Assembly (NCBI GenBank): GCA_029210175.1
Contig: JARGPL010000001.1
Location: forward strand, 62,001 to 126,000
Direction: 5' to 3'
DNA length: 64,000 bases
Source: Minwuia sp.
Lineage (GTDB): Bacteria; Pseudomonadota; Alphaproteobacteria; Minwuiales; Minwuiaceae
The position numbers were made by a program, and so were the translations under genes. Positions 10,039 through 14,257 of this stretch are shown piece after piece. A model generated the notes under the pieces. It was not told the DNA's origin. It did no database searches and worked only from the letters and a program-made list of their open reading frames with translations. Position 1 is the first letter of the stretch. Each line of letters starts with the position of its first letter.

Positions 10039-11235
10039 TCAAAGCCAGTCTTCTTCATATTCAAAGGTGGACAAGCGCCTGGCCCCGGTTTCCGTCACCA
10101 GTACCTGCTCCTCCAGCTTCACGCATTCGCGACCGCCCTCACGTCCGATCAGGCTCTCGATGCACAGCGTCATCCCTGCTTCGATCACGCCCTCATATCC
10201 CCCGGTTGCGAAGTCCTGATCGTAGACGATCGCGGGATACTCATCACACAGGCCGACACCGTGGGCGACGACGCAATAGCGGTTGGATACGCAGTCGGCA
10301 GGCAGTTCGGAGCCAATGGCGCTGAATTCCCGGAACGTCAGCCCTGGCTTTACCCGCGCGATGTTGGCTTCGATCTGTGCAAACGCGGTGGCATAGAGCC
10401 AGCGCTGTTCGTTGCTGGGGCGCACGTCACCGCAGATCCAGGATCGGGAAATGTCGGCGCAATAGCCGTTTGGCCCCACGAGATCGGTATCGAAGGACAC
10501 CATGTCCCCGGCCTCGATCACCCGGTTGCCGCACTCCTGAAACCAGGGATTGGTGCGCGGTCCGGATGTGAGCAAACGGGTCTCGATCCATTCACCCCCG
10601 AATTCGATGTTGGCCTGATGCAGCCGCGACCAGAGGGCCGTTTCCGTGATTCCGGGTTCCAGTACCGCCCGCATGCGGCGCATGCCTTCTTCACAGGCAT
10701 CAATGGATTCCTGCATCGCCGACAGTTCGACGTCGTTCTTGATCGCGCGGGCCAGTTCCATGACCGACTGGCCGTGGCAGATCTCGATGCCCCGCTTGCA
10801 GAGTTCGTGGACACCCAGCGGTTCCAGCGTGTCGACGGCGATCCGCCGGTTGCCGCCACCATGCATGGTGACAAGGTCCTCGATTTCCGCACCCCACTTC
10901 CTGGCGCGGGTCTGGGCCTCGGGTCCCGCGCCGAAAAAGAAGAACGCGGTCGCCGGTCGGGTCTCGGTGATTGCCTCATTGTCTGCTGACAGATGCGCGC
11001 AACCGGCAAAGTCGAACAGGACAACCGGCCCGTCGGTGGCAATGAAGCAGTATCGCGCGGTGTTGTGCAGGGTCCAGACCTGCATGTTGGTGCTGTCTGT
11101 GGCATAGCGGATGTTCACCGGGTCGGTCAGCAGGGCGCCTGCCACATCCACCTTGCGCAATTGTGCGCGCACCCGGTCCAGTCGCCATTGACGCAGGGCA
11201 ACACGATCGACGGCGCTGTGGTGAAAAACCGACAT
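10039..11235 (-). CDS. DddP-like M24-family protein (possible DMSP lyase or betaine hydrolase)
   Basis: 398 residues with the 'pita-bread' M24 fold: metal ligands Asp249, Asp251, Asp261, His325, Glu360 and Glu375. Distinctive stretches ('NIRYATDSTNMQ', 'GGEWIETRLLTSGPRTNPWF', 'HGVGLCDEYP') match, from memory, the DMSP lyase DddP rather than generic Xaa-Pro peptidases. All six ligands, plus Tyr320 and Asp331, have the spacing I recall for Ruegeria DddP (constant offset of 46). The protein lacks the ~45-residue N-terminal extension of classical DddP. It lies 14 nt after an MttB-family gene, which argues for a quaternary amine or DMSP-like substrate; DMSP cleavage itself is unproven. Confidence 0.8.
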   Translation of the reverse strand: MSVFHHSAVDRVALRQWRLDRVRAQLRKVDVAGALLTDPVNIRYATDSTNMQVWTLHNTARYCFIATDGPVVLFDFAGCAHLSADNEAITETRPATAFFFFGAGPEAQTRARKWGAEIEDLVTMHGGGNRRIAVDTLEPLGVHELCKRGIEICHGQSVMELARAIKNDVELSAMQESIDACEEGMRRMRAVLEPGITETALWSRLHQANIEFGGEWIETRLLTSGPRTNPWFQECGNRVIEAGDMVSFDTDLVGPNGYCADISRSWICGDVRPSNEQRWLYATAFAQIEANIARVKPGLTFREFSAIGSELPADCVSNRYCVVAHGVGLCDEYPAIVYDQDFATGGYEGVIEAGMTLCIESLIGREGGRECVKLEEQVLVTETGARRLSTFEYEEDWL

Positions 11236-11249
11236 GACGCTTCCTCCGC

Positions 11250-12833
11250 TCAGAAGTCTGTTGGTGCGCCGCCTTCTTGCGTGCGGCGATCAACAAATGC
11301 CTGCAGTTCCTCCGCAACTGCCGGATCGATCGGCGGCGTTTCGTAGGAACCGAGGATCTGCTGATACATTTCGTGGGTCTTGTCGTAGGCGGTGGGGCTG
11401 CCCGCTTCCTGCCAGCTCTCGTAGTTCCGCCAGTCGGAAACCATCGGCGGATAGAACGCGGTTCGATAGCGTTCCTGGGTATGCTCACAGCCAAAGAAAT
11501 GCCCACCGGGCCCGACCTCCCGGATGGCGTCCAGTGCCAGGGAGTCGCGATTGACCTCCACCGGGGTGAGAAACCGGGAGACCATCTGAAGGATGTCGGC
11601 GTCCATCACGAACTTCTCGAAGGATGTGTGCAGCCCGCCCTCCATCCAGCCCAGTCCGTGTTTCAGCATGTTGACCCCGCCCATCACCGCGCCCCACAGC
11701 GAGAACACGGTTTCATAGGCGGCCTGGGCATCCAGGGTGTTGGCCGCATTCACGTTGGATGAGCGATAGGGCAGGCGATAGCGTCGTGCCAGCTGCCCGC
11801 CGATCAGGGCCGTGCGCATGGCCTCGGGCGTGCCGAATGCCGGTGCCCCGGATTTCATGTCGACGTTGGACGTGAAGCCGCCATAGACGAATGGCGCGCC
11901 GGCATTGACAGTCTGTGAAATCACCAGCCCGGCCAGCGCCTCCGCATTCTGCTGCACCAGTGCGCCCGCAAGCGTTACCGGTGCCATGGCCCCGGCAAGC
12001 GTGAACGGGGTGACGCAGACCGCCTGATTGCGGCGCGCCAGCTGGATCACGCCTTCCAGCATCGGCGTGTCGAAGCGCAGCGGTGAGGAGGTGTTGATGA
12101 TGGATATCAGCGACGGTTCGCGGTCCAGCGTCGCATTGTCGACGCCGCGCCCGATCCGCGTCATCTCGATGCCATCCATGATCCGTTCGTGCCCCAGGCT
12201 GTAGGCGTGAATGGCCTTGTCGGAGAGGGTGAGCATGTCCTGCAGCGCCACCAGGTGCCGCACCGAGGCGTGGATGTCGGCGGGTTCCACCGTGTAGCCG
12301 CCCCACATGTGAACGGCATTGAGGGTCTGGCCGAGCTTCAGGAAGTTGCGGTAATCCGTTGTGTTGCCGGGGCGGCGGCCCCCCGCCCGATCGGCACAGT
12401 TCGGCGCACTGGCGGCAGCGCAATAGACGATATGGTCGCCGCCGAAGATGACATTGTGAGCCGGGTTTCGGGCATGCAGGGTGAACTGTGACGGGGCCTT
12501 GCCGATGACGCTGTCCACCAGCTGGCGGTCGAAACGCACCCGGTCACTGTCCGCGTCCACATCGGCACCCGCTTCGCGCAGCAGGTCCTTCGCTTCCTCG
12601 TGCAGGAAGTCCATGCCGATTTCCTGCAACACATCCAGGGACGCATTGTGGATCTGTTCGAGCTGGTCGTCGGATATGGCGCGCAGGGGCGGATAGATCA
12701 TGCGGGGCTGTTGAAAGGGCTGCTGTTCCAGCACCGGGGTCGCATCACCGCCACCGCCACCGCCACCGCCACCGCCACCGCGCCGTCCGCGCCGACGGCG
12801 GCCATCGCTTCGCTTTCCGTCCGCTTCCGCCAT
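11250..12833 (-). CDS. MttB-family (non-pyrrolysine) trimethylamine methyltransferase-like protein
   Basis: 527 residues. The body (from about residue 45) is an MttB-superfamily TIM barrel; members transfer a methyl group from a quaternary amine (trimethylamine, glycine betaine, proline betaine) to a corrinoid protein. No in-frame TAG occurs, so it is of the non-pyrrolysine (MtgB-like) type. No corrinoid protein gene is visible beside it. The N-terminus is odd: a basic 'RRRRGRRG' segment runs into eleven glycines encoded by a 6-bp repeat. The start codon has only a weak GGGG ribosome site. First gene of the operon with the DddP-like and FAD/GcvT proteins. Confidence 0.85.
   Translation of the reverse strand: MAEADGKRSDGRRRRGRRGGGGGGGGGGGDATPVLEQQPFQQPRMIYPPLRAISDDQLEQIHNASLDVLQEIGMDFLHEEAKDLLREAGADVDADSDRVRFDRQLVDSVIGKAPSQFTLHARNPAHNVIFGGDHIVYCAAASAPNCADRAGGRRPGNTTDYRNFLKLGQTLNAVHMWGGYTVEPADIHASVRHLVALQDMLTLSDKAIHAYSLGHERIMDGIEMTRIGRGVDNATLDREPSLISIINTSSPLRFDTPMLEGVIQLARRNQAVCVTPFTLAGAMAPVTLAGALVQQNAEALAGLVISQTVNAGAPFVYGGFTSNVDMKSGAPAFGTPEAMRTALIGGQLARRYRLPYRSSNVNAANTLDAQAAYETVFSLWGAVMGGVNMLKHGLGWMEGGLHTSFEKFVMDADILQMVSRFLTPVEVNRDSLALDAIREVGPGGHFFGCEHTQERYRTAFYPPMVSDWRNYESWQEAGSPTAYDKTHEMYQQILGSYETPPIDPAVAEELQAFVDRRTQEGGAPTDF
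12746..12781. repeat. Hexanucleotide repeat CACCGC x6 coding for poly-Gly
   Basis: Six perfect copies of CACCGC (plus strand) lie inside the 5' end of the MttB-family gene and encode glycines near residues 18-30. Slippage by one unit would add or remove two glycines without a frameshift. Confidence 0.9.
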
Positions 12834-12989
12834 CGCGCAACCCCGCTGAAACCCGGTGCCAGACCAGAGGGCCGACCGGTTTCGCGAAGTGTGTCACAGG
12901 TCCCGGGAGCGCCAAGAGAACCAATTCCGGCGGTTCATGTCCCAAAAACGGCAGACAGTGATCGATCATTCCAAAGGCTGAGGCGGGGT

Positions 12990-13085
12990 GAAAAGAAAAG
13001 GGCGACCCGGGGAGGAGTGGGTCGCCCTTTCCGTACATCGAGCCGGGCGCTATTTGGGGAGGAGACGCAACCCGGTGGCTCGAAT
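12990..13085 (-). ncRNA. Candidate two-hairpin small RNA with anti-Shine-Dalgarno loops (cuckoo-type)
   Basis: On the minus strand, hairpin 1 (13039-13047 with 13071-13082, 3-nt bulge) is followed 11 nt later by hairpin 2, a perfect 12-bp stem (13019-13030 with 12997-13008). The T-tract TTTTCTTTT follows. Both loops contain the same 9-mer CTCCTCCCC (plus-strand positions 13056-13064 and 13009-13017), complementary to Shine-Dalgarno sequences. Alphaproteobacterial 'cuckoo' RNAs such as CcsR of Rhodobacter share this architecture. A strong promoter on the same strand lies about 120 nt upstream, so the RNA may be processed from a longer transcript or act as leader of the MttB operon. Not a match to any riboswitch I know. 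Confidence 0.65.
12997..13030 (-). terminator. Rho-independent terminator in the MttB operon leader
   Basis: A perfect 12-bp stem (13019-13030 with 12997-13008) and 10-nt loop are followed on the minus strand by TTTTCTTTT (12991-12999). It lies 164 nt upstream of the MttB-family start codon, so it either ends the small RNA or attenuates the operon. Confidence 0.8.
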
Positions 13086-13181
13086 CTTCAATGTCCGTAT
13101 ACATCAATCGACCGTTGCTGTGGAGCAACATCTGAACAAGAGTTCAGCACTGCCTCAAATCGGGCACCGGGAAACGAATGA

Positions 13182-13211
13182 TGCAGCGCAGCACATGTTT
13201 GCTGCACTGCA
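13182..13211. promoter_or_regulatory. Palindromic operator candidate at the minus-strand transcription start
   Basis: TGCAGCGCAGCA (13182-13193) and TGCTGCACTGCA (13200-13211) form an inverted repeat with 12-bp arms, one mismatch and a 6-nt spacer. On the minus strand it begins 4 nt after the -10 box, so a bound repressor would block transcription. TTGCTGCACTGC (13199-13210) differs at one base from the reverse complement of the repeat in the phaA promoter. Confidence 0.6.
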
Positions 13212-13214
13212 GCG

Positions 13215-13243
13215 AATATCATCCTCGTGACACTGAATGTCAA
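13215..13243 (-). promoter_or_regulatory. Strong sigma-70-type promoter facing the sRNA and MttB operon
   Basis: On the minus strand TTGACA (13243-13238), a 17-nt spacer and GATATT (13220-13215) give a perfect -35 and a good -10. Transcription would start near 13208, inside the palindrome, and run through the hairpin RNA towards the MttB-family gene. Confidence 0.65.
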
Positions 13244-13303
13244 GGGTGGCTTTCCATGGCCGTGACGCTTATTGCGGGCGATACGGAACGGAGGGAAGAG
13301 AAC

Positions 13304-14257
13304 ATGACAGCGGTCACGATCAGCGATATCGAAGCGGCGGCAGAACGCATCCGTGGCGCAGTGCGGCGGACACCGATGCTTCGGGTTGCGCCCGCCGTGG
13401 GCCTCGCCCTGCCTTGCGACCTGGTGCTGAAGCTCGAGAATCTGCAGTTGGCGGGGTCTTTCAAGGCGCGCGGCGCCGCGAACACGGCCCTCTTGCTGAC
13501 ACGGGAACAGCTGGCCAAGGGCGTGATCACGGCGTCTGGCGGCAATCATGGCCTGGGCGTTGCTGCGGCTGCGAAGGCCGCTGGCGTTCCGGCCAGCATC
13601 CATGTGCCGGTTTCTGCGGCACCGGCGAAGATTGCCGCGATGCGGCGTTTTGGCGCGGAGGTCATCGTCGAGGGTGATGTCTGGGATGATGCGAATCAAC
13701 TGGCGCTTGCGCGGGTGGAGGCGGAGGGAAAGGTCTACGTGCATCCCTTTGCACAGCCAAGCGTCATTGCCGGTCAGGGAACTGTTGGCCTCGAAATCCT
13801 CGACGACATGCCGGATGTGGAGACGGTGGTGCTGGCCATCGGCGGTGGTGGCCTGATCTCCGGCGTGGCGACCGCGCTGAAGGCGCGTCGCCCCGACATC
13901 CGCATCATTGGTGTGGAGCCGGAAGGTGCCCCGACGCTGCGGCGCTCCGTCGACGCCGGCGAACTGGTGACGCTGGAGAAGATCAGCACCAAGGCACCGA
14001 CCCTTGCGCCGCGCCGGTCGGCCCAGATCAATCTCGATATCATCCGCCAGACGGTCGACGACATCGTGCTGGTCAGCGACCCGGAGATGTATGACGCAGC
14101 AGCCTGGCTCTGGAACGAACTGGGTATCGGCACCGAACTGGCGGCTGCCGCCGGCATGGCGGCGCTGTTCTACGAACGCTTTCCCGTGCGGGCTGACGAA
14201 ACGGTCTGCGTCGTCATCTGTGGCGCGGGCGTGGACGGCTTTGGCCCGACGGGCTGA
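13304..14257 (+). CDS. Threonine/serine dehydratase-like PLP enzyme
   Basis: 317 residues, fold-type II PLP enzyme. Lys54 in 'AGSFKARGA' is the Schiff-base residue, 'SGGNHGLG' binds substrate carboxylate and 'GGGGLISG' the cofactor phosphate. Members deaminate serine, threonine or 3-hydroxyaspartate to 2-oxo acids; there is no C-terminal ACT domain, so it is of the catabolic, non-allosteric type. ATG at 13304 is preferred because GGAGGG lies about 9 nt upstream; the ORF is open back to 13178 but that part overlaps the promoter region. Divergent from the MttB operon, where it could drain serine made from glycine. Substrate not fixed by sequence. Confidence 0.85.
   Translation: MTAVTISDIEAAAERIRGAVRRTPMLRVAPAVGLALPCDLVLKLENLQLAGSFKARGAANTALLLTREQLAKGVITASGGNHGLGVAAAAKAAGVPASIHVPVSAAPAKIAAMRRFGAEVIVEGDVWDDANQLALARVEAEGKVYVHPFAQPSVIAGQGTVGLEILDDMPDVETVVLAIGGGGLISGVATALKARRPDIRIIGVEPEGAPTLRRSVDAGELVTLEKISTKAPTLAPRRSAQINLDIIRQTVDDIVLVSDPEMYDAAAWLWNELGIGTELAAAAGMAALFYERFPVRADETVCVVICGAGVDGFGPTG

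Follow-up and report, generated by a model that had tools for sequence, protein, structure and literature searches.

What is the two-hairpin element that lies on the minus strand between an mttB homologue and a divergent dehydratase-like gene: a small RNA in its own right, a leader of the mttB operon, or a terminator? We addressed this question in the window, the whole 64-kb stretch of DNA analysed here, in which the sequence-only reading had noticed a two-loop hairpin RNA. Our analysis confirmed this element at the level of sequence and fold: a minus-strand pair of hairpins, each exposing the same anti-Shine-Dalgarno (anti-SD) loop and followed by TTTTCTTTT, is present as described. The element and its neighbours are as follows.

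13083-13038, minus strand: hairpin 1, bulged, with a 16-nt anti-SD loop, GUCUCCUCCCCAAAUA
13032-12995, minus strand: hairpin 2, the terminator stem, with a 10-nt anti-SD loop, ACUCCUCCCC
13064-13056, minus strand: anti-SD motif CTCCTCCCC in loop 1, invariant in 7/7 genus genomes
13017-13009, minus strand: anti-SD motif CTCCTCCCC in loop 2, invariant in 7/7 genus genomes
12999-12991, minus strand: TTTTCTTTT, the end of the terminator stem and the U-tract
13114-13129, minus strand: small hairpin GTTGCTCCACAGCAAC of 5-6 bp, found in the five nearer genomes, without the anti-SD core
11250..12833, minus strand: mttB homologue, downstream of the RNA in 5/7 genomes, without a GGAGG ribosome-binding site
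13304..14257, plus strand: divergent dehydratase-like gene (PLP-dependent serine/threonine), beside the RNA in 7/7 genomes

The gene content of the MttB operon is also as earlier described, namely MTTB, an M24 peptidase and a DAO-GCV_T protein. The M24 peptidase (10039-11235) is similar to DddP, a DMSP lyase, with 411 bits against a cut-off of 600. The first 29-32 residues of the MttB homologue are unaligned to its relatives, and a GGTGGCGGT repeat at 12745-12790 codes for a glycine run near the N-terminus.

The 96-nt element has a minimum free energy of -45.2 kcal/mol with a z-score of -5.6, and equal stability was reached in none of 200 shuffles. Hairpin 2 had been described as a perfect 12-bp terminator hairpin; this holds for the inner 12 pairs, whereas the full stem comprises 14 pairs, one of them G-U. 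A terminator scan of 12800-13350 did not list hairpin 2, because its 10-nt loop is outside the loop limit of 3-8 in that scan, which instead gave one site at 13318-13303 and a dyad at 13211-13182 that also scores as a terminator-like stem. The exact motif CTCCTCCCC occurs twice in the window, each time inside a hairpin loop. Two such 9-mers per window turn up in 20 of 100 shuffles and are thus unremarkable; the striking feature is the placement of both copies in hairpin loops, not their number.

To examine conservation, the surrounding 361 bases were searched against 60 genomes, eight of which matched: the own genome, six others of the genus, and G054 with a short match. The latter (L009:528-562), from a distant genome, is a terminator hairpin that has CCTCCTCC in its loop and precedes an ftsA-like gene; we read it as unrelated. 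Comparison of the same gap in related genomes, proposed earlier as a check, revealed that both loops are kept: the exact two-loop pattern is present in all seven genus genomes and in neither of the two genomes from other genera of the family. Five genus genomes carry the same hairpin pair, and in the remaining two (G004 and G006) the stems are partly changed with CTCCTCCCC unchanged. An alignment of the own genome with G004 shows that the stretch between the promoter and the hairpins has diverged. Compensatory stem changes had also been suggested as a sign of conservation. One A-U to G-C double change was found in the hairpin 2 stem, in G004 and G006, without an excess over shuffles: one of 25 pairs is changed on both sides, which 99 of 500 shuffles reach (five distinct rows). 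Four stem pairs have one-sided changes, and two are broken in G004 and G006. Because so many shuffles match this weak covariation, the case rests on the invariant loops beside changed flanks. We consider it very probable that the element is a real, conserved, stand-alone small RNA.

The region upstream of the hairpins contains the following features.

13243-13215, minus strand: sigma-70-like promoter, TTGACA-17-GATATT, the only sigma-70-like site in 12800-13350
13211-13200, minus strand: PhaR-like box 1, TGCAGTGCAGCA, an exact match to TGCRNYGCASMA, overlying the predicted start site (~13208)
13182..13193, plus strand: PhaR-like box 2, TGCAGCGCAGCA, inverted relative to box 1 and matching TGCRNYGCASMA
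13208-12991, minus strand: predicted primary transcript of ~218 nt, derived from the promoter and the terminator

The promoter had been noted earlier near 13.24 kb and is present as sequence; shuffles of 12800-13350 give a mean of 0.2 sigma-70-like sites. TTGACA is found in all seven genus genomes on the RNA strand, 30-32 nt ahead of the PhaR-like box, with 8-10 of 12 promoter positions matched, and the -10 element is poor in G004 and G006. The fold of 13208-12988 has a z-score of -5.5, and the primary transcript is perhaps processed to ~95 nt.

The PhaR-like box at the promoter is additional to the earlier observation, as is the sibling RNA described below. PHB draws PhaR, a PHB-binding repressor, off its sites. 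The sequence TGCRNYGCASMA is presented in PMC6201568 as the PhaR consensus of Bradyrhizobium, obtained from footprints and promoter alignment. The following box counts are not a blind test, because the dyad was noticed before the consensus and the seven genomes are related: TGCRNYGCASMA has five exact matches at four sites in the window, two ahead of phaA (626-640 and 744-755) and two at the RNA promoter, and five matches were reached in none of 100 shuffles; it lies in the promoter, where a member of the PhaR regulon should have it, in 7/7 genus genomes, no more than 300 nt ahead of the RNA, and these 3.1-3.4-kb loci contain no match outside that interval; and it lies upstream in one of 59 pattern-selected, mostly Rhodobacterales two-loop loci, after exclusion of three of 62 loci with too short an upstream sequence. 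Box 2 is exact in three of the seven genomes (own, G004 and G006) and diverged in the other four. A stricter 14-mer PhaR box gave five matches in three genomes, two of which lie at the RNA promoter (G003 and G006), with no match at the own RNA promoter; the other three had no obvious PHB gene in their 3-kb loci.

A phaR gene with both PhaR domains (PF07879 and PF05233) is located ~1 kb left of the window (L339:363-1019), the abhydrolase gene next to it may be phaC, and the window opens with thiolase and SDR genes, which we read as phaA and phaB. These sequence features suggest that PhaR binds at the promoter, and control of the RNA by PhaR appears likely. A precedent is the small RNA MmgR of the ar8 family in S. 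meliloti, the gene of which is repressed by PhaR/AniA (PMC12542648, PMC8401924). MmgR differs from our RNA: PMC8401924 describes it as Hfq-dependent and 77 nt long, with a dyad between -35 and -10, and it belongs to a different family.

The sequence-only reading regarded the RNA as a new member of the cuckoo family. This family was reportedly first defined by a thermodynamic matcher of its authors. The two-loop anti-SD build with a terminator stood up to analysis, but family membership did not: a search of the window at Rfam gathering level gave no match, and the best Rfam match, ar14 (RF02344), scored 27.4 bits (E 0.0034 in 551 nt), below its gathering score of 58.8. In the whole genome, the RNA locus is the top of five ar14 matches at E<=10 (27.4 bits, E 0.006; next 17.5 bits), and 9 of 14 control genomes also yield ar14 matches at E<=10, none above the cut-off. 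Three further weak ar14 matches in the own genome (L012-L014) lack the two-loop form. None of the eight Rfam matches at E<=10 belongs to what we take to be an AbcR-type family. No DUF1127 neighbour was found at the RNA locus; the own genome has two DUF1127 matches, both on different contigs (C24 and C40), and these 3.1-kb loci have no anti-SD hairpins. The ar14 score and the absent DUF1127 neighbour speak against strict membership of ar14 or CIN1, and the RNA has two anti-SD hairpins, not three. Thus, it would act like cuckoo/ar14 RNAs, yet is no member by the features tested.

The RNA shares repeated hairpins, identical anti-SD loops and the common core CUCCUCCC with NfeR1/ar14. NfeR1 of S. 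meliloti is described in PMC10746234 as having three hairpins with CCUCCUCCC, as being controlled by LsrB and NtrC, and as silencing ntrB through anti-SD pairing, whereas our RNA has just two such hairpins, these with CUCCUCCCC, and a PhaR-like box at its promoter. CcsR, the CIN1/cuckoo RNA of Rhodobacter sphaeroides, likewise consists of tandem anti-SD hairpins, the last being the terminator, and model R1 also matches the CcsR-looking loci L031, L032, L028 and L029. In contrast to our RNA, with its sigma-70-like promoter and PhaR-like box, CcsR is placed by PMC10253847 on a common transcript with ccaF1, a DUF1127 gene, under an RpoHI/RpoHII promoter. AbcR1 and AbcR2 of S. meliloti have a CUCCUCCC anti-SD loop, through which they silence mRNAs for transport and metabolism; PMC8844928 describes them as tandem genes by lsrB with two different anti-SD motifs, whereas the neighbours here are the dehydratase gene and mttB.

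In a draw of 385 genomes of the class, 11 contained the two-loop pattern and two the reversed pattern; four of the 11 belong to the genus, six are from two other families (G258 being doubtful), and one is a low-complexity repeat. A GTDB scan with a related pattern, which may have omitted the genus itself, gave 62 stretches, 55 of which are Rhodobacterales as labelled and three of which look unrelated (L039, L047 and L067). A DUF1127-like motif lies within 2.5 kb in 17 of the 62, as identified by a regular expression in loci some of which are short. The locus L038 is labelled as an Exiguobacterium profundum MAG, but its two-loop RNA resembles those of Rhodobacter, and it is perhaps mislabelled or derived from a mixed assembly. 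Model R1 matched 11 of the 385 class genomes at E<=0.01, four of them from the genus. All nine R1 matches outside the genus were folded and judged by eye: eight are plain GC-rich terminators without anti-SD loops, and the ninth (G030, L156) is a cuckoo-type RNA. Our RNA suggests that, in an order represented by a single family among the genomes examined, the two-loop form exists without DUF1127.

Our analysis also revealed a probable sibling anti-SD RNA, judging from its sequence, in the second-best ar14 match of the own genome (17.5 bits, E 0.9), a pair of hairpins at L011:1508-1603 (G000:C8:22158-22253). Its loop 1 contains TCTCCTCCCCA, as in the main RNA, and its terminator loop contains ACCTCCCC without CTCCTCCC. 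Model R1 scored it at 37.3 bits (E 2.9e-5 over 467 kb); the class scan with R1 scored 10 candidates per genome, which may be why the sibling is absent from it. The sibling starts within the last codons of a DMGDH-like DAO/GCV_T gene with the same domains as the third gene of the MttB operon, and beyond the sibling lies a convergent MatE gene.

The loops are complementary to GGGGAGGAG. A search for GGGGAGGAG-N3-10-ATG gave 141 matches in the seven genomes and none for the reversed control; 110 distinct ORFs of at least 60 aa were retained as the target set, and the rest were dropped. Orthologous sites precede a FAD monooxygenase-like gene in five of the seven genomes, a TauD-like gene in five and a second TauD-like gene in four, the gene names being assigned by eye and the families supported by Pfam. 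At 27 of 103 sites the motif has T before and A after it, where ~19 would be expected from single columns. In the own genome, G003 and G006, GGGGAGGAG gave 11, 29 and 26 matches, respectively, the control AAGGAGGAG gave 1, 5 and 8 (reversed 4, 1 and 2), and the control GGGGAGGCC gave 14, 9 and 20 (reversed 1, 3 and 4). When 51 target ORFs (66 matches) were compared with 32 control ORFs (43 matches) by Pfam, TauD was found in five of the 51 target ORFs and was absent among the 25 of 36 control families shown. Catabolic genes abound in both sets, and the control set also contains housekeeping genes; the functional bias of the candidate targets relative to the control motif is weak and no proof. 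In a 400-kb sample of G003, the most frequent SD 7-mer is GGGGAGG (15 of 112 starts, by crude gene picking), and therefore wide pairing is possible. RNAduplex, used on short isolated strands and hence of ranking value only, gave -26.5 to -32.8 kcal/mol for loop 1 with four of the best-kept sites, -15.2 with the mttB start and -11.6 with phaA.

We favor the reading, with a probability of roughly 0.58, that the element is a PhaR-controlled, trans-acting, stand-alone anti-SD small RNA. Its transcription would start from the promoter at 13243-13215, run along the minus strand and stop at the terminator hairpin near 12991. PhaR on the start-site box would probably hold it down, and PHB would release it by drawing PhaR away. 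The two redundant CUCCUCCCC loops could then pair with mRNAs that have GGGGAGGAG as the ribosome-binding site and block their translation, peripheral catabolism and transport genes being among the predicted targets. Repression through the loops is proposed by analogy with related RNAs; we infer transcription, PhaR binding and its sign, and the targets.

The earlier suggestion of either a free RNA or an attenuating leader tied to MttB divides here. A leader, acting as an attenuator or 5' UTR of the mttB operon, would be consistent with the mttB start 156 nt past the U-tract in the own genome and with the presence of mttB downstream in five of the seven genomes. In G004 and G006, however, hairpins, promoter and box are all retained, but the gene that lies ~36 nt after the RNA, in place of mttB, is convergent and of the SCP2 family. 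Since this gene replaces mttB in 2/7 genomes, we judge a free small RNA far more probable than attenuation of mttB, and the attenuator was set aside; the lack of GGAGG at the mttB start also speaks against it, and we regard a leader of either kind as improbable. We hold it to be just as implausible that the element is a mere strong terminator with a chance loop, ending another minus-strand transcript. The plain terminators that make up eight of the nine folded outside matches and the shuffle frequency of CTCCTCCCC in 64 kb would suit such a terminator, but the loops are invariant although flanks and some stem bases changed, hairpin 1 is no terminator and yet retains the same loop, and the genome contains a second RNA of the same form.

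A cuckoo/ar14/CcsR-type RNA without a tie to PhaR deserves more weight than these, although we still consider it unlikely. Situated between divergent genes, the box could instead serve the dehydratase gene, which adjoins it in 7/7 genomes, or it could be no PhaR site at all. The rank of ar14 as the best Rfam match and of the RNA locus as the best ar14 match genome-wide is consistent with this explanation, as are the predominance of Rhodobacterales among the GTDB matches and the DUF1127-like motif near some of them. Promoter placement argues for the PhaR-controlled RNA instead: the TTGACA promoter keeps its distance from the box on the RNA strand in all seven genomes, whereas the best promoter matches on the dehydratase strand reach just 7-8 of 12 and share a common place only within subgroups.

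Among the anti-SD RNAs of alphaproteobacteria, NfeR1 has been linked to nitrogen control and CcsR to stress. The promoter of our RNA carries a PhaR-like box, and therefore the RNA may tie carbon storage to nutrient use. We found no report of such an RNA in the open-licence PMC literature; what appears to be new here is the match to a PhaR box over the promoter of a putative anti-SD RNA in all seven genus genomes. More speculatively, two sibling anti-SD RNAs might couple storage and C1/betaine breakdown to how catabolic genes are translated: one would be controlled directly by PhaR and the other released from the end of the mRNA (3') for a demethylating oxidase, and both would act by way of loops matching the SD form most common in the genus. 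If the RNA is indeed controlled by PhaR, storage status would set which catabolic mRNAs are translated.
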